Shown one piece after another: positions 15,232-58,813 of a stretch of DNA of 64,000 nt (positions are counted from its first letter, which is position 1; the number at the start of each line of letters is the position of its first letter). The stretch comes from Lineus longissimus (taxonomy: Eukaryota > Nemertea > Pilidiophora > Heteronemertea > Lineidae). A model generated the notes under the pieces. It was not told where the DNA came from, made no database searches, and worked only from the letters and a program-made list of their open reading frames with translations. The position numbers and the translations under genes are program-made. Location: NCBI RefSeq assembly GCF_910592395.1, contig NC_088314.1:12586001-12650000 (forward strand). The letters run 5' to 3'.

Positions 15232-18200
15232 CTATAAACCCATAAGAATATCTCTGAACTTAGCTACTTTTCCTCTGGGCACTGGCTTAGTGAACACATC
15301 AGAAATGTTCTCATCCGAGGGCACATATACAACATCTAAAACTCCTCTCTGGATTTCATCTCTGACAAAGTGATATCTTATGTCTATGTGTTTAGACCTT
15401 TGATGCAAAATAGGGTTTCTGGACAGAGATATGGCGCCCCGATTGTCACAGTACAGGATGAATTCATGAGCCTCAGTACTACCTGTCATATCTTGCAGCA
15501 GGGCCTTCAAGAAAATCCCTTCCTGTGTAGCTGCTGATATTGACATGTACTCGGCTTCGCAAGTTGAAAGAGCCACTGTGGCTTGTTTTTTTGACTTCCA
15601 AGAAATCAAGGGACCATCTACTGCAAGCATAAAACCAAAACCTGTCACACTTTTGCGATCTTCTGAATTGGCCCAATCTGTATCGCAATAACCAACCAAG
15701 TTGAGTTCATCATCAGATTTTCTGTACACTAACTTCTGATCTATAGTGGTTTTCACATACCTGAGAACATGTTTCGCAAGAGCCATGTGGATCTTAGAGG
15801 GAGCTGACAGATACTGAGACAGTTTAGAAACAATGAAACACAGATCGGGTCTTGTACCCATCATTACATAAATGAGACTACCTATTATTTCTCTGTAGAG
15901 TTTCTGATCAGTAGGTTTGCCTGACTCACTGCACAATTTGTTTACATTCATGTCACATTGTGTATATTTTGGCTTGCAGTTCTCCATGCCAAATTTAGCT
16001 AACATCTTCTCCAAATATTTTCTTTGTGAAAGAGAAATCACACCTGCCTGTCTGTCATGCACAAACTCAATGCCTAGATACCATGCTATAAAACCAAAAT
16101 CCTTCATCTTAAACTTTCTCTATAAACTGTCCTTTACACTCTCCAAAATAGGATCAGAACTAGCAGCCACTATAATATCATCAACCCAAATGACAACTAC
16201 AGTAGTCTCACTACCAGAAATTCTGGTGTACACACAAGGGTCGTCCTTTGACTGTGAAAAGCCCTGTTCAATGAGATGTGAGTGGAGCAAATTGTTCCAA
16301 TTTCTCCCACTCTGTTTCAAACCATAGAGCGACTTTCTTAGTTTATACACTAGCTTTTTATCAGTTCCACTTTTCACTTCAAAACATTCTGGCTGTTCAA
16401 CATATAAGTCACAATCTATAGGCGCATTCAGATAAGCAGCCTTTACATCTAGTTGGTGTACAATCAAATCTTTCTCTACCGCTAATTGCATCAATGTTCT
16501 TACACAGAGGTGAGCCTAGCTGTTGGTGCGAAGGTCTCATGGTAATCTACATTTGGTACCTGGGAATACCCTTTAGCCACAAATCTGGCCTTATACACTT
16601 CCTCATTGTCTGGTCCTAACTTGACATCATAGACCCATCTTCCCCCCACTACCTTTCTACCAGGAGGCAAAGTGGTCAGTTCAAATGTGTCGTTATCATT
16701 TAAAGCATCAAACTCAGTGTCCATTGCCTTTTTCCAAGCTTCAGAATTACAATCAGACATTGCTTCCTGATATGACTTAGGAACACTACTAATCATACTG
16801 TAACAACTATGTATAGTGACATTTACTTTCTCATCCAACTTGTCGCCCATCACATAATCTCTATACCGCTTGGGAGGTGCCACATTACGCTTTGGGCGAG
16901 TTCTATTCTCATTCCCAGGTTCAACTCTAGCAGCACCTACATCAACATCAACATCTGTGTCTACTACAACTATATCAGGCTCAGCAGCGGGTACAACTTC
17001 ATCAGGCTCAGTGCCCGGTACAACTACTACAGGCATAGCGCCTGGTACAATTACATCAGGATGAACAGCTACATCTTTATGACCTTCAGGTTTCTTTCTC
17101 AAAACTAAATCTTCACTACCTTCATCTGAAGTATCATCTACTGGAAATTCTGGTTTCTGAACTACACTGGGTTCACTTGTGAACTTCACACACCTGACCT
17201 TTCTGTTTCTGAAAAATACACCAGAAGTGCTGGACTGTCTTTGTCATAGCCCACAAATATACCTTTCTCACTCCGATCATCCAACTTCTTTGGGTTTTGT
17301 ACCAAAGCATAGCATGTCGAACCAAACTTTTGCATGTGAGCAATGTTAGGCTTAAAACCAGTGAATGCCACATATGCTGTACCTTTGATCCTAGGATTGT
17401 AACATCTATTTCTGGTGTACGCTGAACACAAGAGTGCATATGACCACAAACACTTTGGCAAACCAGCTTGTAACAACAAACACCGAGCCATTTCAAATAA
17501 TGACCTCCAAGATCGCTCTACTGTACCGTTCTGATGAGGTGAGTACGGAGCTGATCGTTCATGTTTGATCTTGCTACTGATGAGAAGGGATTCAAATGAT
17601 TCTGATGTAAACTCTCCCCCCTGATCACTCCGAATCCGTTTCACTGTACCATAAAACCTAACTTCAGCAAGAAACTTTTGTGTTGCACGCAAAGTATCAC
17701 TCTTGTTCTTCAAAAAATACAACATGATTAAACCAGAGTAGTCATCCACACACCCTAAGACATACCTAAAACCTTCCTTGGCAGGGGGGTCTACAAGTCC
17801 TGCCAAGTCAAAATGCACCAATTCAAGAATAGAAGTTGCCCTTCTGTCTGGTGTCTTATTGATTATCTGAGCCATCTTACCAGTAATGCAAATACCACAA
17901 TCAAATTCTTTTCTATCTTGAATTACCATACCATCTACCACATCTTTCAGTTTCAACATGTCCTTGGTGTTACAATGTCCCATGATCTCATGCCAATCTT
18001 TGAGAGAATGTTTAGCTGACTTCTGTGACACACTAGCAGCACTATTCAAGTAGTACAGTTTGCCCTGCTTTTTGATTGAAAATTGGACACCCTTTTTAGA
18101 AAACACAGCTGAATCTCGATCAAATTCCACATGTGCACCCTTGTCAACCGCCGATTGTACCGATAAAATACTCAAGTCAAAAGATGGTACATACAAAGCA

Positions 18201-19366
18201 TCATACAACATACATTCATGAACATTGCCATCAACATCAAACAGGTCAACACATGCATGACCCTTCTTGAGAGCTAAATTGTTTGATCTACTACCATCTG
18301 CCAATTCAATATAGTGACGAACAGGATCAAAAGTATCATCAAACTTCACAAACTTTGATATGTCATTGACAATATGCGTAGTCGCACCGCAATCGACCAA
18401 TAAACCACCTTGTTTACTACTGACTGAATTTAAAGAATCTACCTGGCCAGCATCAATCTTGATAACAAATGAGTGTTCATTGTTTGTGTCACGAATAGAT
18501 TCGGCCATCTTCACAGTGTCTCTCGTATGTGGAAGTTTGCGACAGTACGATGTATCATGAGTAGAAGATTTACAATGTTCACACCACCGTTTACTTTTCC
18601 TACAGTCTGCTGCCTTGTGTCCTTTGATACCACAGGCATGACAAGTACCTTGAAATTTAGCACCACTACTACCACTATAGCCCGATGGCTTTCTCTGCAC
18701 ACCGTTGTTTCCACTCCATGATGAATAGTTACAGTGTTTACCACCACCAGCAGCACCAGTCACCCTTAATACGGAGTTGTCTGAACTACTATCGTGAACT
18801 TTCTCGGTGTCCTCGAAGTTTCTCAAAGCAACCTTAAACTCAGCAAACGTGACGGCGTTCTCTCTCTGCGTGATAACTGTAGTGAAAGGTTTAAACTCGG
18901 ACGGTAAACCCTTCAGAATCATGGCCACTGTCAGACCATCGCTGATTGTTTCACCAGTGTCTTTGAGGGCAGCAACAATATTCTCTGCACGTATGATATA
19001 ATCAGTCACAGAATCACCAGGGCACAAGCTTAACGAAGTCAGTTCAGTGTACAAAGTTATTACTCTGGGTTTGCCCTTGGGCATATAATGCCCCCTGAGA
19101 ATTCCTAACGCCTTACGCCCATCGTCCCTAGCATCTCTCATAATCAAGGATAAGCTGCGGTCATCTATATATTGTGACATCTCGGCAAAAGCCTCAGCAT
19201 TCTTAGCTGCATCTACCTTAGTAGGATCTGTCTCTGCCAATCTACCATAGAGTTTTTGTATACGCATGTGACCGAGAAACCGCACTTCCCAAAGTTCATA
19301 TTTTCGTTCGTCTCCATCGAAATAAAGCCTTTTTCTGGGCCCATAACCTGTTGTGGTTGTCATCAT
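15232..19366 (-). pseudogene. Copia gag-pol polyprotein, three coding lesions
   Basis: The first ORF (19366-17186) starts at a true ATG and encodes Gag, a CCHC knuckle (CHACGIKGHKAADC), the protease site LLVDCGATTHIV, the GAG pre-integrase HxxxGH segment and an integrase core. Integrase residues seen include HFDLAG, RSDQGGEF and PYSPHQNGTVE. A frameshift near 17195 leads into an acidic linker and the start of reverse transcriptase (ETFAPTARLTSV). A second frameshift at about 16497 leads to the block LDVKAAYLNA and the catalytic VIWVDDIIV. A stop at 16120 separates this from the last part, which ends in RNase H (CEAEYMSIS; KHIDIRYHFVRD). The lesions are few, so decay is recent or partly sequencing error. 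Confidence 0.88.
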
Positions 19367-19455
19367 GGAGCAGCTGGACGGAGGATGATATTATATTATG
19401 AGAGATTGGACGGATAAAAGATAAATAAAGATCGACAGAATAAAATCAACTCTTC

Positions 19456-23005: not shown

Positions 23006-23011
23006 GTTATA

Positions 23012-23130
23012 TATGGGCGGTTATTTCCGCATAAATAAAGGTTCTCATAACATTTGTGTCGCTTTTCCGCAAAAATGGAAGTTCCCCATATAGATGTTGT
23101 GTGGCACTGGCGTGCGGCAATTTTGGGGCA
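23012..23130. repeat. Left terminal inverted repeat of the two-gene element
   Basis: Begins TATGGGCGGTTATTTCCGC. The segment 23050-23120 matches the inner part of the right end (GCTTTTCCGCAAAA, then GAAGTTYCCC, then GTTGTGTGGC). It lacks the extra subrepeats found at the right end. Confidence 0.85.
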
Positions 23131-24113
23131 AGTTTGGAATTGACTTATCTGCCACGACGATAGTATTGTGATTGCTCTAAGCAGTGCACATGGCTATTTG
23201 CACGCGTATCTAAGGCTATCTTCTCCGGATTAAGTTACGCAAACCCCGAGTGTTTTAGCGAGATATAAAATCAACAAAGAAATAATCAACAATCTGTCTG
23301 CATTTCCTGACAATACACAGCGCCTCAGGACCAGCTCAAAACGCGGAATACGCGTGGTTTCCGAGTTCACCACTCTGCGACGTCAGCGCCATTTACGACC
23401 ACGCTCCACACAGCGTCAGATCCACTCTTCGCGCCGTCGCGCAGGCGCAGTTAACGATAGCGGCATGACGGCGTCACGTCACCCCCACTCGCAGTGCTTA
23501 TTCTATTACGCATTCACGGACCGCGCCACTGGAGAGTTCCCCGCGAGGCAACGTCACGGGAAAGATACAATGTAATACAATGCATTGCGGGTTCCTTTGT
23601 TTTAGATACGACCCGACTTGATACATTTTTGAGTGGTGCACAATGCAAATGTACAGGGCGGGTCCCGGGCATGGTGGAAGTGTCTTGGTGTTGAAGGCGC
23701 GCATGATGATGATGGCCCTGCTTGAGATAGCTGCTTATGTCTTATAAAGTTTGCGAAAATCTTTATTAGTGTAATAAAAAAGTGTATTAAGAATATATCA
23801 GAAATAAATTAGCCGAATTTCCCAATGTTGAGGTTTTATAACGGCGTCCTTACCGCTTACCGGAGAGTATATTTCAACATATGGGGGGGGGGATGGGTGG
23901 CCGATATGCTTAACAAAACTGCTCGGATAGAGGGAAACGCTTAACTCATATATATATAAGAGTACCTATGTGTATCTTTAGGTGTGTGGACTGGTTCTGA
24001 AGATAGATGACAAACAAACATTGACCGCCATTCGGGTTTAGGCTCCATCACACCCCCACCCCTTTGCTAGACCCCGATAGTGATTTGGCGGGAATTTTGA
24101 ATTGTTCACAAAA

Positions 24114-25857
24114 ATGGAGAACTTAGACAGCCATATTAAGGGGGCTCTCTCCAACTTTCGGAGGGGTTTCCGTGCCGAATTGCTGACAGCCGAGGAAAGG
24201 GAGATTTTCAGGGCATTCTGCCACGAACTTGATGGTGTTGCAGGGTGCCTGGCTCAAAAGTACAGCCCTGACGTGTATGGCCGGGCGGAGGCGAGGAAAC
24301 ACCAACTGGTGCAGGTAATGAACTGACAGTTGTATTTCTAATTTCCAATTTATACAGATACGTCAAAAGCATAGTAGGCCTACGTCAATTAGGTTATTTG
24401 TGTCATTCCCGAGCCTAGAAAGGGAAATATTGATCCCAAGCCGACAATTTCCGAAGCCTTCCGAATGGTAATTTGCAAGAGGTGGCGAACATTGACGTCA
24501 GCTTCTACATTGTGTTTATGAAAGAGCAAAGTCTAATCAATCAAAAATTGAAAATAACATGTTGTCATAAGCCACTTACGCATTGTTTTCTAATCAGCTA
24601 TATAAACAGTTACTAACTTTGATTAGCCGTGTCCTGGCATGGTACCAAATTGCGATAATGACATCACCACCTATACCGCCTGAAATTTGATTGATTGACA
24701 TAATTGACATGGCGGGAAGCGGGAAGCAGCCCGCCAGAGTGCACAAAAATTGGTTTGATATAACTGCGGGTTTAGTACTCACAGGGGGCCTAACGTCCAG
24801 GGGGTCGAGGTGCGAACGAAATAACTGAGACTGTACCCTAGACCTTAAGATGGCGCAGGCCCTCTGCGCGGCCTACTTGGATTAGAAAGAAATGTTACTA
24901 TAGAAAGTTATTGCCCAAATTGTTAACCCCCTCCCTCTGTGAAGAAATTGGCGGCCTATGTTTTTTTCTTTCCATATTTTCCATATGTTTTTGTCATTCC
25001 AGAGTTATCCTATGGTTGTGGATGAGATCAGGCTCATTCACAAGCAGATCCTCCGCATGATGAGGTCCAATGGTCCACGGAAGAGTCTGCGAATTGCTCG
25101 GTAGGTTCATGAGCTTCATGAGTTCTTTATTCTCAACGGAAATAGAGAAAAACGGGTTTTTTGTGGGGGGGGGGGGCAGGCAACAGGAAAAATGGTGTCC
25201 GCCCCGAATCAATATGGTAGCTGTTTCCCTGGACACCACCACTTAGAATGATAGCTGTATGTATTGCAATTCTTGTTTCATTACAGAGATGTACCAAGTT
25301 GCGTCTTCGACCAGATCCGGGGCCTGATGACGACAAACTCATTCCGGACCACAGTTAGAGAGACAAGAACCACCTTGACACTTGCCATCACCAGCGCAGA
25401 GAAGGTGGTGATCCTTTTTAACTTCTGGGGCAGGGAAGAGGGTTTAGAAAGGAATAGCCTGCTGAGGAAGACGGACCGACAGGTAAATTGCATCCCAGGC
25501 TCCTCCTGACTAAAATTTATCCCGATGTGTGAATAAAGGTGACAAAGGTTGGAATGCACGAATAACTCCCTACATTCCCATGATGGCCAATTGGTGTAGT
25601 AAAGATCCTGCTAGCAGGCTTTAATTGATAGAGTATGAACTTAAATGTAATGTGAGACACTCTAATGTCATGATGCAAGTGCATTTGACTTTAATCTCAT
25701 GATACTGATTGATTGTTCCTTTTCATTTCAGGGAAATAAGATGAGCATCCTCGTGAATGAGAGCCACCCCTTCACCCTGATGTACCATAGCAACACCAAG
25801 AGACTCTTCCTCACATCTGGATATGAGGTGTTGAATAAATATGGTATTGCCCAGTAA
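24114..25857 (+). CDS. Unknown 206-aa protein, four exons, in the two-gene transposon
   Basis: I do not recognise this family. Exons are 24114-24314, 25003-25100, 25287-25482 and 25732-25857. Every junction is GT-AG and phase-consistent (0, 2, 0), and the sum is 621 bp with the stop at 25855. The ATG follows CACAAA. The predicted protein starts MENLDSHIKGAL and is mostly helical and basic, with motifs LIHKQILRMMRSNGPRKSL, VVILFNFWGREEG and HPFTLMYHSNTKRLFLTSGY. No signal peptide or membrane segment is apparent. It converges with the bromodomain-transposase gene in the same element, so a role in transposition (DNA binding or regulation) is an inference only. Confidence 0.75.
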
Positions 25858-25984
25858 AAACGTTTTTGTTGCTATTTCCTTTCTTTGAATGAATGGATCT
25901 CCAGCAAGTGTCTTGTTCCTCCAATTTCCTGGATGCTACCAGAAAAGCAAGGATTGACTTAATTAACAAACTGGGTATCAGGAC

Positions 25985-26300
25985 ATCCTCCCCCTCCCCC
26001 CTCCTGGACATTCCCCCTGGACATCTGCCCCCCCCCTCCCGGACATTAGTTGACCCCCTGGGACATCTCCCCCCTTGAAGGACTTCAGATAAACCAATAT
26101 CAGTCAGTTTTCATCAGGGGAGCAAATGTTCGAGAATCAACAAACTGCGGAAGAATCAGATTCAAGATAAGAATCTGCTACTGTATCTGGAGTAGGCGGG
26201 GAAATGCATCTCCCCTAGTTCATTTGCCCCCCCCCCCGCCCTGAAGGATCTATATCAGACACAGTGATATCCTTTGGGGTGTCAGGGGGCAAACATCCAG
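25985..26300. repeat. Pyrimidine-rich simple repeat (GGACATCTCCCCCC units)
   Basis: Between the two convergent genes of the element lie repeats of CTGGACATTCCCCCTGGACATC-like words and C runs. On the right they pass into the complementary GGGGGCAAACATCCAGTGGGC. The local inverted arrangement could fold. No coding is inferred. Confidence 0.5.
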
Positions 26301-27290
26301 TGGGCAGATGTTCAGGGGGCAAATGTCCTAGAAATGCAGATTATAGGAGGCATTTCCAAAGTTCCAGCAATGCTGACATGGATGCAGGGTGATCATATGG
26401 ATTGTGCTGATGTCATCTGGAAAGAAATGTCCCTTGAACATGGCAGTCTTGACATCTGTGAAGTTGAAACCTCTCCTGGTGTTCATTGCCACATCTCACT
26501 AGTGTCAGGCATGTACATGTACAAGAAAGACTATTCAAAACAACACCAAATTTTATGGTTAACACTGATTATAATTGAAAAAGTATAAATTCAATCACTC
26601 AATAACCAGATAAATTATTTATCATTGACATTCATTAATAATTTGTATGAATGACATTAAGAAGTCGTGGACAACAAAATTGAGCATTCAAAACTTGACA
26701 TTTGGACACGTTTTTCAATCAACCAATTTACAACTGAACTCCTTTCCTTTTGATAATCTATGTAAATCTGGCAACTATGAATCCTTGTACAACAATACAA
26801 CAAATATCATTTTCCTGCATTATACACCAGTGGCTATTGACCAAGGCAGTGCCATTAAAACCTGATGCAGGGCTATCAACGCACATTCTATAGAAATTTG
26901 GCCATTACAGGATATTCCAATCCACCTTTAACTGCTCACAGCTTTTTGCCATTACATGTAGTTACACTAATGTAAAACCGTCAAGAGTTACAATGCATCG
27001 TGATGTGACGACAGCCAACACAATGTCAACGTTGTTCCCAATCAAGTTCATGAATCTTTAGGAGGTACAATTGTACCAAGTTTTAAGTCAAAAGCTTCAT
27101 TATTTGCAAAATGTGCCAATTTACACTATTTGACTTCTGCGACCTTGAAAAATAGGTCAAATCAAAAACCTGTATGATATGTTATGTGGCTTTATTAGAT
27201 GTACCTATGATTAAAATTTGGCACTGATCCATGCATTAAGGAGATATAGGACTTTTTGTGTTTACGGTTAACAGGAATGCAAAGGCCTTT
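26301..27290. other. Intergenic stretch inside the two-gene element
   Basis: No gene is seen. The last 200 bp (about 27060-27260) are a fragment of the hairpin-ended repeat family (TTTGACTTCTGCGACCTTG and following words). Confidence 0.45.
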
Positions 27291-30200
27291 CTACCAGACA
27301 ACATCACGCTGTGCCTTCCTCATTTCTGGTGAGATTCGTCTTTTCTCACAGGTTTCTTCAATCAGCTTCATTGTGGGATGATTGCAGAATAGACATGCAC
27401 CCTCAGTGGCTAAACCACACTTACACATGTCAGCTTTCACATTTGGATTGATGTGATATCTATCTCTGGACCTACTCTTCACCAAATCTTTCACAACATC
27501 CATATCATGCTCTTTGAGCCAATACAGATCAAGATATTCATGCCGGAATATCATACCCCACTTGTTCTGGGGGGTACTGAATCTCGCATACTCCTTCAAT
27601 TGTTTGTTCTTGGCCTCCCGTCCTTGCATACTATTGATACCTAGACCAATTCCTAAGCGGAAATAAAGAACCTCCGCATGAAATCGAACAACATATCCAA
27701 GATGCCAAGTTGTCAAGTTTGCTCCAGTCATCAAAAGAACGTGACATGCATGGTACTGTCGAAAAACAGTCTGCAATCGTTGCAGTTCAAACTGACTGAA
27801 TTTGATCTTTGAAGCAAGACCAATAGCTTCGCGCACAACCGTGCAGGCAAAGTGAAATACCAGGAGACTGAATTGTCTATCAGGAGTCCCATTTTGTCCC
27901 ACAGCCTTGATCAAGTAGGGGTAACCCTGGCAAAATTTGAAGGAGTCTTCTCCTGTAAACCTTACACCAAGAAGCCTTGTGCCACAGGAACCTTTTGACA
28001 GAGCGGCACAATTCTCTGTAAACCACCTTCTGACCTGTATGAAAATACGACCAGCGTGAACTTCATCCCGAAGACAAACCAGGTATCTGCCAAAGGGAGA
28101 TTCTATGAAAGCATTATTCTTAAAATCAATGCAACCCCTGATGACCTTATCATCAGTTAGTGTTAGGGCTTCAGTCAAAATAGCCTGGTGAAGCTGAGCA
28201 CAGATGTTATTTTTCAGATGAAGAGAATCGATATAACAGTGCTCCGAGTAAATGCCAAGTGTAGGTACGTGTTCTTGCCTAGAATGCAAGGATGCAATGT
28301 ATTTAGTCACTACATCACGCCTGCTGGCCTCCTGTTTTTTCAAGGCCACTTTTTTTACCACGGCTAGTCGATCAAGATACGACCAAGGTTTCCAGGTGGA
28401 TTCACTGCCACCTAAACTTCCGTCAAGCTTTGACAGGTCATCTTTTCGCACATTGCCATAACTGGATGGATAGGTAGCTGCATTGCTGAGCTCGCCACAA
28501 GCAGTGGCTATCCACTTGCAGTCACCCGGAACAAGTTCAAGAGTAAACCTGACCACAGTGGATCCAATCATGAACTCTTTCTTCTCAATGGACTCCATGT
28601 TTGAAGCTATTTCGGCAACATAGTTGAGAATAGAAGCATGGTCCTCAGGTACATCAGCCCCGAACAACAAAAACTGGTACATGCAGCTATTAACCTTCTC
28701 AGACAAATTCAGAAAAGACAATAGAACAGACGTGTGCGTTTTCAACTTCGAGGCAGGAGCACCATCTGCCCCAACAGATATCGAAAAATAGCCTCTTTCC
28801 TTCTTCAGCCAATTCAAAGATTGCCCATTGACCTGTAACTTCTCATCTATCTCTAAATAGACTGATGCTATCTTCAGGAGGGTGTCTTCGAGATTCCGGT
28901 AGCAGCCGGAAACACCTGCAACTTCATGAACCTGAAGCTCTTTACAAATACTTTTCAACTGATGAACAAGTTCCTGATATGTCATCAGCTCATCACCACT
29001 ACATTCGAAACTGAGATCTGCCTGCCGCAATGAAGTGTATTTTCGACTGGATATTGAACCATTACGATACATGTATTTGACACACCGGACCACATTTGCT
29101 TCCGTTACCCGTTCCTTATGTTTTGTTACTCTGCCTTCCTTGGGTCTCGATAAATTTGAATAGTACTTTTGAATGGCTCCCTTCCCTGCTTTTTTAACCA
29201 ACGTCAGCCACAATCCATCCTGCACACTTTTGGAATCAGCTCCATGAATTGGTTCCAATGCCTTGCATGTTTCGTCAACTCGTTTAGTCATGGTTGTGTT
29301 GCTCAGGTAGCATCTCGCAGAGTCGTTTGGCAGAACACGGGTCGGGTTCGTCACACACCGTAGTGTCGATTTCATCTCTACCTGAACATATTGGTCTAGT
29401 TTAACAGGGGGTACAAATTCAGCTCTCAGTCTTTCCTTCCATTCGATCTGAAAGTGAAACCAAACAAAATTAGCACATACAGATAAATGCATCTTTCAAG
29501 AACTGAGTGCCAAAGAACTGAAGGCCTAATGTATTCGATGCTGATTACCGGTTGTTTCCATTTTTCCGCAACAACCCATTGGGTGTCCCAAGGGATGAAA
29601 AATGTTGCTAAGAGGGCAATATAAACGTTTGTTCAGGATACCAGTTCTTGATTGAGGCTCAAAACTGGTAATGGTTGCCTGTACGCATCAAAAAGATTGT
29701 ATAGGCCTACACTGCTCCTCAAGGCTGGCTTTGCAACAAAATTATATGTGACAAGGTAACAAATTTCAGTGTAACATAATATATCTCAGACTAAGATACC
29801 CGTACAGTGCTGCTGTCTTTTGTTGTAGAATTACTGTTAAGATAACATACCTCAGCAGTCAAATCACGAATACACTCTTCCTTTTCCCTGATGTCATCAT
29901 CCAGCTTCTCAACCTGGCTTTGCACCACTTTCATGGCACTGGCATGGGCCATGTCAAGTTTTGCCTCTTTCTGTGCACGCCTATACATTCTGATATCCCA
30001 GCCAGTTCCGGTAGCTTTTTTCTGGAACCGAAAGTGATGAAAGGTCAGCATACGGTAATAAATTGTGTTCAGCCGGTGGATGAAATGAACAATGTAATGA
30101 AATGGACAACTTTAGACAGCCCAGGTTGCTGTGTCATATGACTTTGACATCTGTGAACACATGTGAACCAAAAATGCAGTGCTCACTTTATCCCTTTAAA

Positions 30201-31600
30201 ATTGAATATATTACAGGTACAATCAAATGTAGCTGAAATGATGACAGGGGAATATTCAGCGTACTGGTACTCTTGCTATAAGAGGCTAAATAAAAGAAAG
30301 AATGGTCAGACTGTGATTTTAAGATGTGACTTCAGAGGGTATTGAAAGCAGTTTGTGCGACATCAGCTACACAGGTCTGGTATAATTAGCCTTGGACAGG
30401 AGAAGAATATTTCTTGGGGGAAACAGTACATGTACATCATTTCTATAATACCTTTGCTGGTTTCCTGCTCTTCAGTTTATCATACTCCACAGTGTAGAAG
30501 CCAAAGACAGTGTCACAGTCAACCCGAATCTGACTTGCTGGATCTCTGTTGTACTTCACACAATTATCTCTGACGAGGAGCATGTCTGTATGAAAGTCCT
30601 CAATGTCTTTATACTGACCACTCTGAAATGGAAGTGATAGGATTTAGTGATCTGCAAGTGAGAAGTTGCGAGTTTCCAATATGATGCAGCCCACCCAGCT
30701 TAAAAACACTACTGTTCGAGGCCAACAGAGAATGCCAGAGGACACAACGTCATTACATCATGGAGCAACCAGATTGAAGCTGTGACGTCATTCAGCAGCA
30801 GAACATCAAAAGAGGCAGATGCCAGTCAACCACAGCCACCCTTATGAGGCCTAGAGGAATCAACCACACCAATTGGGACCAGTGGGCAATGATTTGACTA
30901 GCATTTTCGACCAGTCTACAATTTGGTGTCTCTGAGGGGGTCTTAGCATTCACTTCTTCATGGGTTGAATTTCCCAAACATTGTTTGAGCTACCACAGTA
31001 TTATCCAAATGCTACCCACCTTTATTTTCCCTTGGATGGTTGAAAAATCCATTGGGTGCTGAATCAAATTGAAGTAACCTTGTGCATCATCTTTATTCAC
31101 TGAAACAGGATGATAGCAATAAAGAAATAATGGACATTATAAGCTACACTACAGGAGGTGCCAGGGCATCTCATAAAATTGCAAAGCTGGGTGGTGGTGG
31201 AAGTGCAACATTAACTTGTCGTCTTCAGTGTGTGTATTAGAAGTGAGCTCTGATCATCTAATTCCTTCAAAGCAGTGTGCAGTATCTATCACAGTGTCAG
31301 AAAATACCAGTTGTCTTTTGTGGACATCTGAGTACAGACTGTCAGGTGTTTATCCACAATACATACATGATGTTTCTGGGTAGGCAATCACATAATATCT
31401 TCGAACACCTGTAGGCAACTGAGTCAAAAACCTAAGATTGAATAAGATTCATAATATCATGCCCGATTTCTCCGGCCTGATTTGTGATATTTACCTGGTA
31501 ATCTAAACCAAACTGATGGGTCAATGTTAATTCTATTCATTCTTCCTCCTCTGTAGTGGGCAACCCTCTGGAGCAATCCCAGACACTCGGACTCCATCAT
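27291..31600 (-). CDS. Bromodomain plus transposase-like protein, about 894 aa, five exons
   Basis: Exons on the minus strand are 31600-31495, 31099-31020, 30622-30452, 30021-29851 and 29447-27291. All introns are GT-AG with matching phases, and the total of 2685 bp ends in TAG. Residues 1-119 form a bromodomain: helix Z with ECLGLLQRV, the loop HPMDFSTIQGKIKSGQY, and NCVKYN, where Asn87 is the expected acetyl-lysine contact. Residues 120-176 look like a charged coiled coil. The single 2157-bp last exon holds a region known to me only from dispersed invertebrate uncharacterised genes: SVGADGAP near residue 403, GREAKNKQL near 783 and a cysteine cluster CKCGLATEGACLFC near 850. The Asp and Glu in these motifs are candidate DDE residues (inference). 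The start may be the ATG at 31600 or an ATG split across the upstream intron. Confidence 0.82.
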
Positions 31601-31898
31601 GGAGGCTGTTGCCACTGAAATAAACACCAAAGATTGTTAATAAGGCGTGCACAAATATTGACACAGCATAAACTCTTTTCAATTGCAGACCTCTACTAAA
31701 ATTAAAACCAATTTAGAAAAGTGTTTCTTGAACTGAAAGTGGGTGTTTTGAGAAAACAAAATCGAAAAATGCCATCAAAAATATCTATGTCATGGATGTC
31801 TGATTAATAGAAATAGTATTTCTGAAACAGGACCATTTGATCCCAACTCTTAAGAGAACAAGTATATGCTGCCTATTGTTTCATTTCTTTATACTTAC

Positions 31899-31994
31899 TC
31901 AGACTGAAAGCTGTTGAAATCTACAACAGGGAAAAACCAACTGTGGACAGCAGTTCCAAAGGGAGAATGACTCCCATTTGGATTTGTAAGTACT
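31899..31994 (-). other. Candidate upstream exon of the bromodomain-transposase gene
   Basis: This 96-bp minus-strand block has an acceptor ending TTTCAG and a strong donor GTAAGTAT, and is open in one frame (FGTAVHSWFFPVVDFNSF). Joined to the next exon it does not continue in the bromodomain frame; it would meet a stop. It is either a 5' untranslated exon, with an ATG formed across the junction, or evidence of a frameshift in the following exon. Confidence 0.5.
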
Positions 31995-33279
31995 CTGAAA
32001 TGAAATGAAAATCATGATCCAGTTGTGGTAACGGTACAAGCGTGAATGCCTTTAAAATTCTTGACACAATGGACTTAACTACCGGAGAAATCATACTCCC
32101 TGTTAAACTAGACCAATCTTTTCAGGAGAGAAAAGGCATCATCAAATAGTTATCTTACTCTGGGATCCCCCTAAATTTTGCCCGTGAATACCCTGGGTAA
32201 ATCATGCCGATTGTGCCCTCGATTTCTTTGGAAAATGACCCACTCTTCGGCAATCCTGCCTCCTGGCGGCGTCGCCCATGTGGGTCTACCCCTACCCCTA
32301 ACCCTCATTCCTGCACCCAGAGTGGCCATCCAGCCTAACCTTGCCCCTACCCCCAATCTTAACCCCCTACCACCTCCCTAACCCTCCGATATAGACTGCC
32401 ATAACCCTAGGCTCTAGCCGCAACAGTACAGTAGCCATTGAGATGTACAGCAAATGTACAGGCCCAGTGCACTCAGGCCTCTGTGCATTTCAAGGTCATG
32501 ATAATTTCTGTTGTCTATTAAAATAACATGTGCCCACACTAATGATTTGGCCCTTGGTAGACTAGATATATGATGCAGCCTACGAGGAACACAAACACAG
32601 GGTAGGAAGAGCTGCAATTTTGTACAGACATACATTTTTGTAAATAGCCAAGGTCAACTGGAGCCCAAGGGCCTAAATCCGCCATTATGGGCGTTGGGCC
32701 CATGCGCCATGACCCACCAAAGCTGAAATTATAGGTATCAAATTATCTTCCTATTTCTATTTTGAAGATCTCAATGCACTGCTCAACGAAATTCCGCAGA
32801 GTGTAAATTGAATACACCAAACACAACACCTTTTTTTTACATTTCGGATTGGTGTTAGAATAATCTAACTAGCTGCTCATAAACTTTGACATTTATCACT
32901 TCCGTTGAGCCAAAAATGTTCTCTTACCATGCCTAAAATTTGATGAAATTCGGGATAAAATTCAGAGAAAATCGTTTTTCATTTCTCTATCCGCCATTCT
33001 GATCTTGTTGAAGTCGAAGGCCGCTGGGTGGCAGCAGCTCCCGGTTAGGGCCAGGCAGGAAAATACTAAAATCAATGGATTTTTAACCGGCTTCAAAAAT
33101 TGACCTCCGTCCAGTGGCGCTCCACGCGGGGCGTGACAGAACTGATGCTAAGCGGTTGCTTGATCTCAACGGTTTCGAGGCGCTGTGATACATAAGTACA
33201 TCAAATGTACATGCAATACATGCAATAACGCCGCCGCTTACCCTACCGCAATGACAATGTCCACATCGCTGTTGCCATC

Positions 33280-33551
33280 CTTAAAATTGATTCCAGCGCC
33301 ACACAACGTCTATTTGGGAAACTTCAAATTTTGCGGAAAAGCGCCACCAAACATCTATTCGAGTTATTAACAAAAAGCTGAAAACACGACAATATATGTC
33401 AGTATTTGAGATACGAGCGCCACCAAACGTCATGTTTATTTCAGGTACGTCTCTGTTAAAACGAGCGCCACCAAACGTCTATTCGAGTCATAACACGACA
33501 TAAAATGACTATTTGAGACAACCTCTATTTATGCGGAAATAACCGCCCATA
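33280..33551. repeat. Right terminal inverted repeat with subterminal direct repeats
   Basis: The outer end is the inverse of the left end. Inside are three copies of GCGCCACCAAACRTCTATTCGAGT-like units (about 33343-33365, 33417-33434 and 33464-33490). They lie between the outer part and the part matching the inner left end. The right end is therefore about 150 bp longer than the left through expansion of these units. Confidence 0.8.
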
Positions 33552-33610
33552 GTTATAATTTCAGAGCCGATGCAGTGGAAGTGAATAATCCACTGCAGAA
33601 GTGAACTCAC

Positions 33611-33807
33611 TCTTCAAACGCAGTATAATCGATGTTCATTCGACAAGGGAGCCCTGGTGGATCTCCATTGTAGTAAAATCCATGAATATTGTGTGTTGTC
33701 TCATCAAGTTTGTACACATCAAGCTTATTTCGCGATAGGAGGTGCCAAAAACCAGCATCTAAAGCACTGCTGAAAGGCACAAACTGTAATCGACATGGGG
33801 TGGACAT
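33611..33807 (-). CDS. ATG7: ATG7 coding exon 1 with start codon
   Basis: The ATG at 33807 opens a segment reading RLQFVPFSSALDAGFWHLL and later YYNGDPPGLPCRM, which is the highly conserved start of ATG7 (human KLQFAPFSSALDVGFWHEL, YYNGDSAGLPARL). The exon ends in phase 2 at a donor GTGAGT (33610-33605). Exon 2 at 1257 joins it in frame, giving a 32.4-kb intron. The frame is also open upstream to a TTG, but the ATG has an A at -3 and fits the family length. ATG7 is a cytosolic homodimeric E1-like enzyme of autophagy. Confidence 0.92.
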
Positions 33808-33997
33808 TATGAATGAATCTTCCAAACGGGCGGGCCGGACAGATAAAACTTCAAAGGCGATTTGTTATATGTACAAGGCAAAAAGTTATTTCATGACTCG
33901 GGTGAGTGACCCATTTCCCGGGATTTCTTAGTTGGCCGCAGCCGTCGATTTGCACTTTGTAAATCTAGTATGATTCAACTATTTGATCACATGTATG

Positions 33998-39810: not shown

Positions 39811-42768
39811 GGCACCCAGTGGTTTTCCATATGCTCCAGCTCTCGCTATTACAAACCCCTGGGGAAATCCATGCCCTTCAGACGGACTGTAGCGGTAGAA
39901 AAAAAGCGCCCAATCAGAGCGTCGGTTGTATTTGAGTCTCGGAAATTCGTAAACCACGGACCCAGGAATTAATGCTCTCAGATGCACTATCAATTGTATA
40001 GTCTTTTGCGCCATAGGGCTCGGGTCCGAGGTAGGTTAGTTAAATTTCAATCAGCGCCATGAAACGCGTATTTTCATTAGCTGCTATTTTTAGAACATCC
40101 GGGTATTTATGAAAATTCTGAATTTTTCAGTGCTGTTCCTTCGTATTGCGCGCACCCCGCTGCAAATTTATTTCATTACTTAATTAAAACACAATTACAC
40201 GTCTACACAATGTTTAACAGCATAGAATCGATGAAGTATAAAACGATTTAACGATAGGATTATCTTAAACTTTATTCATATACATTTTATTGTCATATAA
40301 AACACTATATATACATACATTACGCACAGTGTATCAGGTTATCAGAACAGCCACCCTTCGCTGTCGATTCTAATGGATTTTCTCAGGGTTTTGTATGGGA
40401 CGTAGGAGTATCAAAAACCTGAAGCTCAGGATGACGTGTCACACGACGAAAACCGGTGCGACTACAATGACTGGTCCGAATACCGAAGTGAAAGATACTG
40501 GAACTAGCCGCAGTGTAGACATAATATATGAATCTTTTAACTGTAAAGGTTTCAAACAGTCGGCAGACTATATTCTGGAACGACTAAAGAAAGTCAGTAT
40601 TTTATGCCTTAATGAGACATGGTTGAGGCCTGGCGAGATCTATTTAGTGGATGAAGTTAGCAATCGTAATAATGATTCACAGGCAACTTATAAGTCCTTT
40701 TCAAAGTCAAGTATGAACGATTTAGACGCGAGTTATACAGGGAGGCCGTTCGGCGGCGTCTCAATCATTATCAGGAGTCTCCAGATTATAACTGTTATGA
40801 AATTGACGTCGACAATCCTCGGGTTGTTCCTATAGGTATTCGTGATAATACTGGTAAACTAAAGACTGTTGTTGTGAACGCTTATATGCCTTTCTTTGAT
40901 GCGTCAAACGGGAAACAAACAGAACAGTATATAGAATGTCTTGATGCTATTCAATCGCTTTTGGAATACGCCCATCTCTGTCCAATAAAGATAATGGGAG
41001 ATCTCAACGTTCAATTACCAACTTCGCCTGATCTTAACAAATATTGGTATAGGGCCAAAGGTTTTAATCAACATAGTGCAATTATATACGATTTTATTTC
41101 TGCCAATGATTTACATGTTTTGGATTTTAACTTTAAGCAACCGGTGCAATATACATATTTTTGTGTGAAGCGGAATGTCTATACCTGGATTGACCATGTT
41201 CTGGCCTCAGGCCAGGAACATAATAAAGTTAAATCATGTAGCATTGTTCCCCTACAAGAGGGCAACGTGAGTGACCATTTGCCAATCGACGTCGTTTTCA
41301 CTCTGGAGTGCAGTGACCCCGAAGTTGGTGGCTCAAAGTGTAAAACATCTGTGAGAGATAGTAGGCCGGTCTTTCCTAAAGCGTGTTGGCAAAATAACGC
41401 AAAAACCGAAAAGTATCGGTCACTTCTAAACGAAAAATTGTCGGCATTAAATCCGTTGCGCATAGATAAGCCTTGTGAAATGGAAGCCTCTGTGAATGAG
41501 TATATCGATGATGTTAATTCCGCCATTCACCAGGCCTGTAGTGAAGCTGGATGTACTAGGTCAAATGGTTTTAAACCCAGAAGGTTTTGGTGCCCGCAAT
41601 TGGGAGAGTTGAGGCAGAAAAAACGTTTCTGGTGGAAACTCTGGGTACAGAACAACAGGCCACGACACGGTGCAGTTTTTGACTGTTGGAAAGCGGTGAA
41701 AAAACAATTTCGTAAGGCCTGCCGAAATGGATTGAATAATGCTGGTCAAATGAGAAACGAACGCTACAATAGGCTATTTAGAGACAGGAAAATGGATGTT
41801 TTTTGGAAAATTATGAAAAGAAAGAGGGGGGAAACCAGGGTATGAGACCTTATTGGCACAGGAGAGGGATGAGTGTGTCATATCCCCTGAGATGGTTAAG
41901 GAAATGATAAAAGCTCTTCCACGGAATACTGCTCCCGGTTGTGACGGAGTGACAACAGAACATTTACTGTATGGACTGTCAGAGGAATTATGCGACCATC
42001 TATCGGCCATTTACTCTTCCATTCTGACCTGGGGGGTCGTACCGCAGGTGTTCGCTATGGGAATTATTGTTCCAAATCTAAAGAAAACAACTCTGGATCC
42101 GAACTCGCCCAATAATTATCGCCCCGTGACCCTCAGCTCAATACACACCAAGTTGGTGGAGGGATTTATGATACCGGATGATGTGTCTAATGATAATCAG
42201 TTTGGGTTCAAATCTGGAATTGGAATAGAATTCGGCTGTTCATTAATGCATGATTTAGCAGCCCTTGCAAGTAGCGATGGGTCGCCTTTGTTTGTTTGTT
42301 CGCTAGATGCACAGAAATGCTTTGACAGCATTTGGCATGATGGCCTTTTTTACAAACTGTGGGATAAAATCCCTAATCATCACTGGTTCTTCTTGTATAG
42401 GTGGAATGGTAAAATGAAGGCGATGGTAAGATGGAATGGTGCTTGTAGTAGGGAGATAAGTGTGCTCCAGGCCCGGTATTCATATAACTTCCTAACATAG
42501 GTGCACCTAAGTTCTAGGTACCCTACCTATGGAGGTGGTCTGCCTAAAATTATATTCATAAAAGGTCCTAAGTACCCCACGTAACTTGGCAGTCCACCTA
42601 TGCTGGTAGGTACACCACCTTATGCGTTGCTATGGCCTAATTCCTTTTATGTAATCAAAATTACATGGTTTTCATTCATTTTGAGCTTGCATCATACTGA
42701 AGTGTACAGTGTAAACTGTCTTGCTCCATGTGCTTAGGCGTATTGGTAGTCGATACCTTCTGAGAAAT

Positions 42769-45602: not shown

Positions 45603-47044
45603 TTTACACTGTATGGCACACAACTAACATTGATTTCCTCCTTTACCATAGTTTATACCACCTCGAGAGGTGTCCTATATCTAGGGGGATATATAGGCAC
45701 CCTGCCAACGCTAAGATGTTTTATGAATATTATGACCTTATGATAGGTACCCCACTTAGGCGTCGAAATAGGTACCCCACCTACATTTATATCACTTAGG
45801 GAGTTATATGAATACGGGCCCAGGGAACTAGACAAGGGAGTAAACTCTCTCCTACTTTGTTTAAGATATTTCTGAATGATATGTTGTCTATGGTTACCGA
45901 TGCCAAACGGGGTTTCTGTATTGGTGAGGACCATTACAATTCGACGGCTTATGCGGATGATGTAACGTTATCGAGCTTGACAGTCAGTGGTCTCCAAGAA
46001 TTGATTGATGTATGTGGTCAATACTCCATAAGATGGCGTTTTAAATTCAATAAGATGAAATTCCGATGCCTCATTATGGGTAAGCATAACTTTAAGAAAG
46101 ACCCTGTATGGAATATTTATGGTAGCTGTCTCGGTTCGGTGGAGCAGCTTGATATACTAGGTGTCAGTTACAACAAACTTGGTAGTAGTACGGACCATGT
46201 GAACAATAGAACTAAAAAATGCCGTGGAGCTTTCTATGGCCAGAATGACAAAGGTTTGTGTTACCCCGGTCTGTGTACCGCAGCGAAGGTTTACCTATGG
46301 AAGTCTTTATGTATGCCCTGCCTTATGTTTGGCTGTGAAACCATGTATATTTCAAAAACAGACCTACGCAGATTAGAAACACCTTCTTGTTACGGGCCCT
46401 TGGAGTGCCAAAAGTTAAAGAGGTGTTGGTTAAGAGGACTAACGGTTTGTTTACGAGAATAATGAGTGGTGAGTCACCCTGCTCCAGGCTGTATTGTACA
46501 CTTTTGTCCAGATATATAATTACTGGCCAGTTCAACCCTCACACATTGCTTGGCAGAATTATTGGAAGTGGTCAGTCTCCCTCGGATCTTATTTTCGGCA
46601 TAAATAATAATCAAGTGGAAGCCTCACCTCCTAATGGAATTGAAGATTCCATACGGTCTCTTATTTTCTCTGATAGTTACAACCGTAAAGCATCACTGTA
46701 CCAAGGCCTCATAGGCCTACGATGGTCATGTTTTGTGCCGGTGTAATGTTTTTGAGTGTTTCCCCTCATTGTTTGGGAACGCTCAAAAATAGATTGACAA
46801 GTTTTTCTGTGTATCCCCCCTATTGAAAAGTCGTGGTCTCTCTAGCTGCCTATTGTTTGGAAACACTGACACATGGGGAACAACCACAGATGTTACACCG
46901 GGTTGGCCCTAGGGTGTTGGGTACAATGTATTTAACTGGTTTTTAAAATATTGTATATTTGTATGTCCTGCTATGTAATGTCCTCAGTTATGGGGGTTTT
47001 GAATAAATAAATAAATAAATTACCGTGTATCATCAGCAATAACA

Positions 47045-50000
47045 ATGGCGGACAATATCAGCAGTTCTTCAATTTCGAGTGATAGTGACGACGATTTAGC
47101 AAGTAGCGAGTGAATCAATATGGTTGCCATCCAAGTTGGGGAATTGGTTGAAATGCGGGAGGCAGGGAATCATATTCTCACAAAAGAGGAAATAGACATG
47201 ATAATTAACTTTTTGTGTACAGGTTGAGTTGATGGAGTATTGTTTTTGGTGTTAGTTTTATTGTGATAGTTCAAGATACTAATGTAACTTATTCATAATA
47301 TCATCGAGATGAACTCGAGGATCGCGTTATGGTGGCAGGAGAGGTTCAGGGGTACCAATTCGAGCCGAGTTTCAACTCGGAAGGCAGTGGCAATGGGTCT
47401 GGCTCGGAAACTTGGGCTTCTGAATCAGATTCTCATTCTGACGATCCGGACGGGGTGAAGGCCAAATGGGCATCAAGAATGAACACAACGGATTGGTACG
47501 TGTGTCAAACATTACTCGGAAGGCAGTGGCAATGGGTCTGGCTCGGAAACTTGGGCTTCTGAATCAGATTCTCATTCTGACGATCCGGACGGGGTGAAGG
47601 CCAAATGGGCATCAAGAATGAACACAACGGATTGGTACGTGTGTCAAACATTGTCTTAAAATGTCAGTTAGCCTAATGTTAACCTTCGAACTTTGGTCCG
47701 TGCTATGTATTTCCGAGAAAAGCCAAAGCGATGCAGAGAATCGGCCTACCCGGCCTTATTGTATTGTACAGTGGAACAGTCCATCCATGCATGTGTACAT
47801 CCCAAGTCCAAGATGCAGGCTTGGCTTGACTTACACTGTGAAGTGAATGCACCTGTAAAATAGCTGTAGCGCTTCCAAATACAACTTGACTTCCATACAT
47901 TTACAAGTATTTTTCTTCTAATTACTAGGTGCGACTGTGGAAAGGTGTGTGTGAATTCACCTTTACCTGAAGAAAATGCGTGCTGCTGTGAAAAGGTCCC
48001 CATTTTGAACAAGATGGAAGAATTCAATGCCGACCACGGTGGCGACATCGTATGCATTACTAAGCATCCAGGGTTCAGCTCCAACTGCCTGGATGTATGG
48101 GTTCTACAAGCGGCCTACAGGTTGTACCAGCAGGGTCGTATTTAACTTTTTTGTCTGCATGCGCCGCAGAAGAATCGAACCCATGACCAAGCACTACACT
48201 ACCGCTCAGGACTGAGAGTGAATGAAGGAAAGATGAAGAATCGAACCCATGACCAAGCACTACACCACCGCTCAGGACTGAGAGTGAATGAAAGAAAGAT
48301 GAAGAATCAAACCCATGACCAAGCACTACACCACCGCTCAGGACTGAGAGTGAATGAAAGAAAGATGAAGAATCGAACCCATGACCAATCACTACACCAC
48401 CGCTCTAGACTGAGAGGGAATCAAGGAAAGATGAAGAATCGAACCCATGACCAAGCACTACACCACCGCTCAAGACTGAGACGGAATGAAGGAAAGATGA
48501 AGAATCGAACCCATGACCAAACACTACACCACCGCTCAAGACTGAGAGTGAATGAAGGAAAGATGAAGAATCGAACCCATGACCAAGCACTACACCACCG
48601 CTCAGGACTGAGAGTGAATGAAGGAAAGATGAAGAATCGAACCCATGACCAAGCACTACACCACCGCTCAGAACTGAGAGTGAATGAAAGAAAGATGAAG
48701 AATCGAACCCATGACCAATCACTACACCACCGCTCTAGACTGAGAGGGAATCAAGGAAAGATGAAGAATCGAACCCATGACCAAGCACTACACCACCACT
48801 CAAGACTGAGAGGGAATGAAGGAAAGATGAAGAATCGAACCCATGACCAAGCACTACACCACCGCTCTAGACTGAGAGGGAATGAAGGAAAGATGAAGAA
48901 TCGAACCCATGACCAAGCACTACACCACCGCTCTAGACTGAGAGGGAATGAAGGAAAGATGAAGAATCGAACCCATGACCAAGCACTACACCACCGCTCA
49001 GGACTGAAAGTGATTAACAAAAAGAAGTTACTATAGTGAACAATGCTCATTGCCTGTTTACCGAGTCCACCAAATGCCCTTTTCGCATGACCATCGCTTC
49101 CCCTGCTAACACAAAGTCGAACGACCCCTATAATTGATTGTGTCAGATTTGTAAACACACATTACAAGACATACAAGCATTGACCATTGAGATTCGTCTG
49201 TCCGCCCAGTATGATAATGAGGACAGTTAGGTGTAAAACATGGAATATGTGCTGGAACGAAAGGTGCATAAATCGGCCCGGTATGTTAGTGGTATGTGGT
49301 ATGTTAGTGGTATGTGGTATGTTAAATTAGAACGTGCCGATAGTGATAATAATAATGAAGAGAGTGTAATTGTATCAATATATTACCGTACTTAATCGGT
49401 AATAATGAGGATACTAGGAATAAATAAAATCACAATATGCCTATCGATAAAACTCAAGGTTTGACGGAGTAAATGAAACCATATATAGCTAAATATTACG
49501 ACTAAGCGAAAGTATAATAGGAGTTTATAATACGTAACCATATATACGTATAAAGGAAAAGTTAACAAGTGATAGTGACGATAATAATGATAATAATAAT
49601 GATGAGAGTGTAATTGTATCAATATATTACTGTACTAATCGGTAATAATGTGGATACTAGGAATAAATAAAATCACAATATGGCTATCGATAAAACTCTA
49701 GTGAATGAAACCATATAGCTAAATATTACGACTAAGCGAAAGTATAATAGGCGTTTATAATACGTAACCATATATACGAATAAGGAAAAGATAACAAAAT
49801 ATGATGAGAGTGTAATTGTATCAATATATTACCGTACTTAATCGGTAATAATGAGGATACTAGGAATAAATAAAATCACAATATGCCTATCGATAAAACT
49901 CAAGGTTTGACGGAGTGAATGAATAATGAAAGTATAATAGGCGTTTACAATACGTAACCATATATACGCATAAAGGAAAAGAAAACATGTAATAGTGACG

Positions 50001-57529: not shown

Positions 57530-58813
57530 GGATTTTACACTCTTCAATCAAAACACTGAGTGTGGGCACGAGTGGCATTAAAAACCCCAGGGGTGGCACG
57601 GCAGGCGGTATTTGCACCACGCCACCACGGGCACCACGCGACCACCACGCCACCACGCGAACAGGCGGAGCGATCAATATGACGATATCAAAATAGCGGT
57701 CGATTCATTGGATCATGGTTTCTTGGAACAATTATAGATGGCGTTGGCTGCTATCCCAGCTTCTCTGATGCCCGTTCTTGGGATTATTGGAATAAAGGCG
57801 TACGCCAACTACGGAAGTACGTACTGAATTACCGTTGAGTAACTAGACGTGACGACTGACCTGCAAAAACCATACGAGTACGAGTGGGTTATATAGTCTC
57901 CCTTTAAAGGGGTGGCCGTTCGTTTGGGTGGGGTGGGTTGGGGGGGGGGGGGGGGGGGAATTAGATTTATCACTCACTCGAACACGTGTGCATAGTTTCA
58001 ACATACAATAGAACAGGACTTTTAAATAGTGGACTATATTTACTTTCACACCAGTGTCACAGTCTTCATCATAGTGTTTAAAGGGACGCTATAGGCAGCA
58101 GCTATGTAGGCAAAATAAAGTTACACGAAGTAGCCAATAGGGGTCTCTCACCTCTCACAGGACGTCGAAACTATTCACACATGAGACAATACACCTATAG
58201 GCAAGATGAGCCCGTCAGGTATTTGAAATCACTGAATCATTGTCGAACAATAGGGCGGGACCTTTAAAACAGGTCACAATATTTACTTTCACATCAGTGT
58301 ACCAAATAGGCCTTCAATGCATAAGCGTACATGCCGTACAGGACCTTTACCGGGGACAAGTCTCTGTACAACACGAATTCGCAATAATAGGTCTCCGGCG
58401 ATCTATACTTTCTCCGCAGTGACAGTATTGTGACAACAATAATGGTGTGATAAGATCTCTCATGACAAACGGTTGGACACGGATGTATAGCGGCTTAATA
58501 ATAGCCCTGCTTTTTGCGATTGCCATTAACAAGTAATAAATACTCGTAAATCCCGTCAGGCAACAACGCAGTATACCAACATGCCATCTATAATTGGTAG
58601 GTGTAACCACAACTCTCAAGTGTCTGTGGTCTGATGGTCTGTTTTGATATCGTCATTATGATCGCTCCGCCTGTTCGCGTGGTGGCGTGGTGGTCGCGTG
58701 GTGCCCGTGGTGGCGTGGTGCAAATACCGCCTGCCGGGTGGCACGGAGGGCCTGCAATGCGACATTTAAAAAACATGAGTTACCAAGATTTGGTAACCCA
58801 ATGCAATCATAAT
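57530..58813 (-). pseudogene. Ubiquitin-specific protease exon (Cys box) split by a transposon
   Basis: On the minus strand, after an acceptor TTTTGTAG at 58814, the frame reads IGLPNLGNSCFLNVALQALR. This is the Cys box of USP-family deubiquitinases (GLxNLGNTCFxNxxLQ) with the catalytic Cys present. At 58736 the sequence enters an inserted element and resumes at 57599 with one copy of GTGCCACCC. It then continues to a donor GTAAGTATCC at 57529. Across the join the frame appears shifted by one base before FLMPLVPTLSVLIEECK. Other USP exons were not found, so it is either a fragment or one exon of a gene with very long introns. Confidence 0.65.
57600..58735. mobile_element. Mutator-like (MULE-type) non-autonomous element, 9-bp TSD
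   Basis: The ends GGCAGGCGGTATTTGC are inverted copies of each other over about 97 bp, with near identity (only a CAAT/CATA difference near the inner end). The 9-bp word GGGTGGCAC flanks it at 57591-57599 and 58736-58744. Long inverted ends with a 9-bp duplication are the hallmark of Mutator-like elements. The 1136-bp body has G runs at 57936-57958 and no transposase. Confidence 0.8.

Follow-up and report, generated by a model that had tools for sequence, protein, structure and literature searches.

A candidate two-gene DNA transposon encoding a bromodomain protein in ATG7 intron 1 of Lineus longissimus

Paired ends and insertion site of the element

The stretch of Lineus longissimus DNA analyzed here (contig NC_088314.1; 64,000 nt, referred to throughout as the window) contains a 10,540-bp element, at positions 23012-33551, that has paired inverted ends, an exact 6-bp duplication at its outer edges, two open, spliced gene models and a bromodomain in the product of the larger gene (Table 1). 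The terminal inverted repeats (TIRs) extend over 35 nt at 94%, or over 32 nt at 97% when aligned by blastn, and the sequence with which they begin, TATGGGCGGTTATTTCCGC, occurs at exactly two sites in the window when up to three mismatches are allowed, 23012-23030 on the plus strand and 33533-33551 on the minus strand. Shuffled windows held a mean of 0.01 such sites, and 0 of 100 reached two. Among the inverted 15-mer pairs lying more than 500 bp apart within the window (n=296), 13 carried identical outer flanks of 4-10 bp; one of these is the pair belonging to the element, with its 6 bp, two (7 and 9 bp) belong to a single other element at 57.6 kb, and the remaining ten have flanks of 4 bp. 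The inverted ends at 23012 and 33551 and the identical GTTATA flanks reported in a preliminary description of the locus are thus both borne out.

Inspection of the regions inside the TIRs revealed a second pair of inverted arms, whose alignment score of 76 lies above the highest score (29) among 200 single-base shuffles; this inner block of 58-59 nt stands 42-99 bp from the left tip and 201-259 bp from the right tip. The right end also holds four minus-strand copies of a 19-nt repeat, ATAGACGTTTGGTGGCGCT, at up to three mismatches, where 0 are expected by chance, in keeping with the subterminal repeats noticed earlier. The left end has a single weaker copy (23090-23108; four mismatches, by eye) inside the inner arm, which pairs with 33340-33358 at 84%. 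A shorter motif, TTTCCGCANAAAT, has two sites at each element end when one mismatch is allowed and one more elsewhere in the window, against 0.57 expected. Because the two pairing blocks lie at unequal distances from the tips and the subterminal repeats are biased toward the right end, the ends of the element are composite and asymmetric.

Pfam scans of single open reading frames (ORFs) covered 15 of the 60 listed ORFs of at least 60 aa in and around the element, together with the ATG7 exon and the two spliced proteins. In these scans, the ATG7_N profile is split over two minus-strand ORFs that lie on either side of the element, with profile positions 1-58 matching the ORF at 33607-33864 and positions 63-99 matching that at 960-1319; exon 1 of ATG7 has matches among ATG7 chains of known structure, too (best match 2.1e-6). 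From this split, and by reading of the splice sites, intron 1 of ATG7 extends from ~33610 down to ~1258, some 32 kb. The element is inserted ~53 bp from the exon 1 donor, inside the 5' end of intron 1, the location given in the preliminary description.

Table 1. Positions of the features of the element within the window.
Feature	Position	Strand	Basis or remark
Left target-site duplication, GTTATA	23006..23011	.	Identical to 33552-33557
Left TIR, begins TATGGGCGGTTATTTCCGC	23012..23046	+	35 nt, 94% complementary to 33517-33551
Inner inverted arm, left end	23053..23110	+	Pairs with 33293-33350 over 58 nt at 86%
Small gene exon 1, ATG to donor	24114..24314	+	GT-AG introns, open frame, codon score
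Small gene exon 2	25003..25100	+	GT-AG introns, open frame
Small gene exon 3	25287..25482	+	GT-AG introns, open frame
Small gene exon 4, with stop	25732..25857	+	GT-AG introns, open frame
Large gene last exon, 718 codons and stop	27291..29447	-	Long open frame
Candidate core: D229 (VGADGAP), D310 (PGDCKW), DxxH 408-411, E612 (QGREAKN)	Within last exon, 27291-29447	-	Proposed by eye; putative assignment
CxC..CxxC cluster at 676, after the candidate core	Within last exon	-	Numbered in the 719-aa frame
Large gene exon, charged stretch after bromodomain	29851..30021	-	GT-AG, open frame
Large gene exon, bromodomain part, YN asparagine kept	30452..30622	-	Pfam, PDB matches
Large gene exon, bromodomain part	31020..31099	-	Splice model, Pfam
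Large gene first clearly coding exon	31495..31614	-	GT-AG, open in frame
Inner inverted arm, right end	33293..33350	-	Shifted ~160 bp inward relative to left arm
Subterminal repeat copy	33295..33313	-	ATAGACGTTTGGTGGCGCT, 2 mismatches
Subterminal repeat copy	33340..33358	-	ATAGACGTTTGGTGGCGCT, 1 mismatch
Subterminal repeat copy	33416..33434	-	ATAGACGTTTGGTGGCGCT, 3 mismatches
Subterminal repeat copy	33464..33482	-	ATAGACGTTTGGTGGCGCT, 0 mismatches
Right TIR	33517..33551	-	Pairs with 23012-23046
Right target-site duplication, GTTATA	33552..33557	.	Identical to 23006-23011

Two convergent genes and a bromodomain

The larger of the two genes, which converges on the smaller one, occupies the minus strand and comprises five coding exons (31614 to 27291) that are separated by GT-AG introns and together encode ~899 aa. 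Its start is uncertain, with the ATG either split over the junction with a putative upstream exon or located inside exon 31614-31495. The chance of the 719 open codons in the frame of the last exon is ~2e-19, as calculated from base composition. Pfam identifies a bromodomain at residues 32-103 of the spliced protein, with a match of 4e-18 that runs across three exons, as compared to 1.1e-6 from one exon alone; this improvement on joining the exons supports the splicing of the gene. Bromodomains in the PDB, including those of polybromo, TFIID subunit 1, BRD9 and others, likewise match the large protein (293 distinct sequences at 0.001), and the asparagine of the YN motif, which contacts acetyl-lysine in bromodomains, is conserved.

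The ~720 residues that follow the bromodomain were unmatched in Pfam (E up to 1 and 10), in NCBIfam and PHROGs (E up to 1) and among PDB sequences (E up to 10). Relatives of the large protein were not found in IMG/VR, GTDB genome contigs or phage records, collections of viral, bacterial and archaeal sequence that have little bearing on animals. Among the matches listed from the open-licence PMC literature, judged chiefly by title and the opening of the abstract, we recognized no description of a bromodomain in a DNA transposon, a search that does not establish its absence from print. The papers on IS481EU, TET/JBP, Dada and Ginger do not use the word 'bromodomain' in their main text.

The four exons of the smaller gene, when joined, encode exactly the 206 aa of the preliminary description, with a calculated pI of 9.8. 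Using a codon-score table trained on the large gene, and a background of 5000 overlapping windows drawn from stretches assumed to be non-coding, we found that the mean score of the small gene (0.053) exceeds that of every background window (maximum 0.040), and that its coding frame outscores the other five frames when all exons are taken together; in exons 3 and 4 taken singly, a reverse-strand frame scores above the coding frame (0.050 vs 0.039 and 0.065 vs 0.037, respectively). Third-position GC is 0.64, compared to 0.38-0.45 for GC in the introns. Pfam, searched at E up to 10, gave no match for the 206-aa protein, which has a single, chance-level match among PDB sequences (0.33) and no relatives in IMG/VR, a viral collection with little bearing on animals. 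The earlier reading of two convergent, spliced, stop-free genes, one of them encoding a partner protein of no recognized identity, accordingly stands.

Between the two genes lies a segment, 27064-27261, that matches ten places in the window at 78-86%, and at 100% over one 32-nt piece. These places fall near 0.6, 6.1, 11.9, 13.1, 20.5, 20.8, 36.4, 36.7, 37.0 and 37.2 kb, and the segment is, judged by these matches, a nested or captured dispersed repeat.

Candidate transposase core and relation to known superfamilies

Within the last exon of the large gene, a set of acidic residues can be picked out by eye as a candidate catalytic core, numbered here in the 719-aa frame 27291-29450, the first residue of which lies within the intron. 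The order of these residues (D, D, IDxLH, E..NK) resembles that of RAG1, a member with Transib of the CACTA-Mirage-Chapaev-Transib clade, and the intervals between them are 81/98/204 in the large protein as compared to 108/84/170 in RAG1. The resemblance was scored with RAG1 segments of 21 residues, each taken around one of the motifs D, D, IDALH and E of that protein and placed at RAG1-like spacing. When D/D/D/E was required, the best placement fell exactly on 229/310/408/612, with a score of 29 that 12 of 1000 shuffles reach; under the same requirement, the reversed large protein and a copia polyprotein of comparable size scored -7 and 7, respectively. Pairwise alignment with RAG1 sets D310 opposite the D of GYDEK with BLOSUM45, and E612 opposite the E of NESGN with BLOSUM62, the latter covering the E612 region only; these RAG1 positions we take to be the catalytic residues D708 and E962.

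Several results weigh against a transposase of this kind. Without the D/D/D/E requirement, the motif test picks other positions, at a score of 39 that 148 of 1000 shuffles reach and that both controls exceed (reversed protein 43, copia 40), and RAG1 was itself chosen for comparison only after the resemblance had been noticed. The plain RAG1 alignments, each of them partial, fall short of significance, their scores being reached in 151 of 500 and 94 of 500 shuffles, and that made with BLOSUM45 sets the DxxH motif out of register. No transposase family was recognized in the large protein by any library used (Pfam, NCBIfam, PHROGs, PDB sequences), and AlphaFold structures predicted without an alignment were unusable, with a pLDDT of 33.6 for the 719-aa frame and 36.0 for a 236-aa core. 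A further copy of the element ends, at up to three mismatches, was also not found within the 64-kb window. By comparison, the same Pfam library does recognize an integrase core in the copia ORF of this window (17186-19390; rve 2.9e-15, rva_4 4.9e-6), which argues that an ordinary integrase core in the large protein would probably have been seen. We consider the RAG1-like order of D-D-DxxH-E to be suggestive only, and the large protein likely to be a transposase. Of the earlier label 'bromodomain-transposase-like', the first half is secure, whereas the second draws on motif order; profile and sequence searches in the libraries named above returned the bromodomain and no transposase.

The closest match for the ends is IS3EU, also called GingerRoot, as portrayed in those parts of the literature that are cited here. 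TET-carrying IS3EU families of rust fungi have 6-bp target-site duplications, TIRs longer than 30 bp and ends of the form TAYGG..CCRTA, and TET-carrying fungal IS3EU elements bear extra genes for TET/JBP and alpha-kinase (PMC12730594); complete IS3EU families always have TA..TA ends and usually 6-bp duplications (PMC10045372). In Zymoseptoria, the Styx element, which groups with IS3EU on account of its DDD/E transposase, combines a 36-bp TIR with 6-bp duplications and carries four coding sequences (PMC10853768). The present element agrees in its 6-bp duplication (GTTATA, from one insertion), in its ends (TATGGG..CCCATA, with a TIR of 35 nt at 94%) and in carrying several genes, and its ends likely work like those of IS3EU. 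It differs in encoding a bromodomain protein and a 206-aa protein without a recognized domain. An IS3EU-type integrase core (rve, rva_4 or other) was not found when the large protein was scanned at E up to 10 and ten further ORFs at E up to 1, with a copia element rather than an IS3EU transposase as control, such that a very divergent core is possible. Because this integrase-core feature of the IS3/IS481-like transposase was not detected, we have not filed the element as IS3EU, the families of which were compared by description only. The preliminary view that no superfamily could be named therefore holds in part: the ends, TIR length and duplication do match printed IS3EU, while the difference in gene content stands as far as tested.

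Other superfamilies share single features with the element. The CACTA-Mirage-Chapaev-Transib clade has mostly CA..TG ends, 2-5 bp duplications and common C(2)C and H(3-4)H motifs (PMC12730594), whereas the present element has TA..TA ends and a 6-bp duplication, and its protein similarity to the clade is not significant. Opposite the CTLC of RAG1, the large protein reads SSYG, and the H pair before its E is spaced by 7 (by eye). In the C/DxxH group, the DxxH motif usually follows close behind the second D; that of the large protein stands 98 residues past it, nearer to the 84 of RAG1. P and MuDR usually make duplications of lengths other than 6 bp. The group (hAT, P, MuDR, Kolobok and Dada) has C/DxxH between the second D and E (PMC9587614), a position that the large-protein motif shares; hAT duplications are 8 bp, with rare variants of 5-7 bp, and those of Kolobok are TTAA (PMC12730594, PMC9587614). 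A Pfam match to hAT, P, MuDR or Kolobok was not found in the large protein, and the group is possible as its catalytic type. Dada elements resemble the present one in having 6-7 bp duplications, a DxxH motif, introns in most and a size of 4.7-11 kb, but no terminal inverted repeats have been found in them and they target small RNA genes (PMC3706591). With its TIRs and its position in an ATG7 intron, the element is not Dada, as was judged at the outset.

The transposase of PIF/Harbinger is DDE_Tnp_4, to which no match was found in the two spliced proteins. PIF/Harbinger movement needs two element proteins (PMC2836001), and canonical duplications in this superfamily are 3 bp (PMC12730594). The present element likewise has two genes; given its 6-bp duplication, this assignment was rejected. 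Polintons have polymerase and integrase content, and no domain of either type was found in the 15 scanned ORFs of the 60 listed or in either spliced protein, in agreement with the preliminary description. The self-synthesizing Polintons encode up to eight conserved proteins (PMC3520738), while two genes are modelled here, and this candidate was also set aside.

Taken together, the element is probably an autonomous-looking cut-and-paste DNA transposon that made a 6-bp staggered insertion into ATG7 intron 1, with the large protein as a transposase bearing a bromodomain tether and the small protein as an accessory factor. While the ends, the duplication, both open genes and the bromodomain are observed, we infer for the rest a mechanism in which the large protein would bind the terminal and subterminal repeats, excise the element and join its ends to a target cut with a 6-bp stagger, while the N-terminal bromodomain would tether the transposition complex to acetylated, open chromatin. 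The small basic protein may be an accessory DNA-binding or regulatory factor, by analogy with other two-gene transposons. Since the genes are read inward, each from its own end, a promoter would be expected in either end region as well.

The strongest competing account is that the element belongs, as an autonomous member, to IS3EU or some other Repbase superfamily, its transposase too divergent for the profiles used and its bromodomain a local addition. The ends and target-site duplication match IS3EU, of which Repbase in 2022 held 45 families, 17 of them autonomous, that are known here by description only (PMC10045372), and we regard such membership as quite possible. Against it, the Pfam library that detects the integrase core of the copia ORF finds none when applied to the large protein (E up to 10), and the candidate spacing of 81 and 302 differs widely from that of DD35E transposases, in which 35 residues separate the second D from the E. 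It is doubtful, yet worth considering, that the element instead represents a new superfamily, in which IS3EU-like ends and 6-bp duplications are combined with a bromodomain-DDE transposase of RAG1-like layout and a dedicated basic partner, and in which the transposase itself would read acetylated chromatin for target choice. Proteins with similar motifs presumably exist among uncharacterized predicted fish and cnidarian proteins; should that resemblance hold, the family may already be catalogued.

We consider it unlikely that the element is a non-autonomous or chimeric IS3EU member, mobilized by an integrase-type transposase encoded elsewhere and carrying its two genes as cargo. Its TATGG..CCATA ends, 32-35 bp TIR and 6-bp duplication do agree with published accounts of IS3EU, its interior yielded no integrase core, and extra genes have precedent in the TET-carrying fungal elements (PMC12730594); yet two open genes filling most of the interior would be unusual for cargo, and the large protein offers a plausible D-D-DxxH-E order. 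That a host gene or processed gene lies by chance between inverted repeats is scarcely credible, for although the bromodomain is a host-type domain, an exact 6-bp duplication adjoins the outer edge of the paired ends, and both genes lie entirely inside those ends, within an ATG7 intron.

If the large protein is indeed a transposase, it would carry a built-in reader of histone marks, and one could then ask directly if a DNA transposon guides itself toward open chromatin. End structure of the IS3EU-like type would likewise be decoupled from the type of transposase. This decoupling would matter because Repbase places two non-autonomous DNA elements in one superfamily if they have equal duplication lengths and can be aligned over the first 11 bases (PMC4455052).

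Other repeats in the window

A copia-type retroelement occupies 15232-19390 on the minus strand, with gag and integrase domains in the ORF at 17186-19390 and the end of the reverse transcriptase in that at 15232-16119 (two ORFs scanned). Between 41817 and 46462, a LINE reverse transcriptase is split, RVT_1 profile positions 5-118 falling in 41817-42500 and positions 116-203 in 45812-46462. The two parts are separated by a Harbinger-like element (~42.5-45.8 kb) that bears a Myb-like gene and matches DDE_Tnp_4 just under the Pfam cut-off (22.9 of 24.8 bits). Read by eye, the inverted ends of this element contain GTATTCATATAAC, and a 3-bp CAG is found on both sides.

An ORF at 54618-55091 on the minus strand, without a Pfam match at 0.001, contains a stretch, VVGVDGRSDTPWHSAKYG, that we take to resemble the first-D region of a transposase. 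The inverted-repeat element at 57591-58744 (~1.1 kb) has GGCAGGCGGTATTTG ends at 57600 and 58735 and identical 9-bp flanks, GGGTGGCAC, and its right part (58359-58735) recurs at 59554-59927 with 98% identity. Tandem repeats are also present, in the form of an array of 66-bp period at 48169-49013, open as a repetitive 296-aa reading frame, and an exact 139-bp tandem duplication at 47375-47652.

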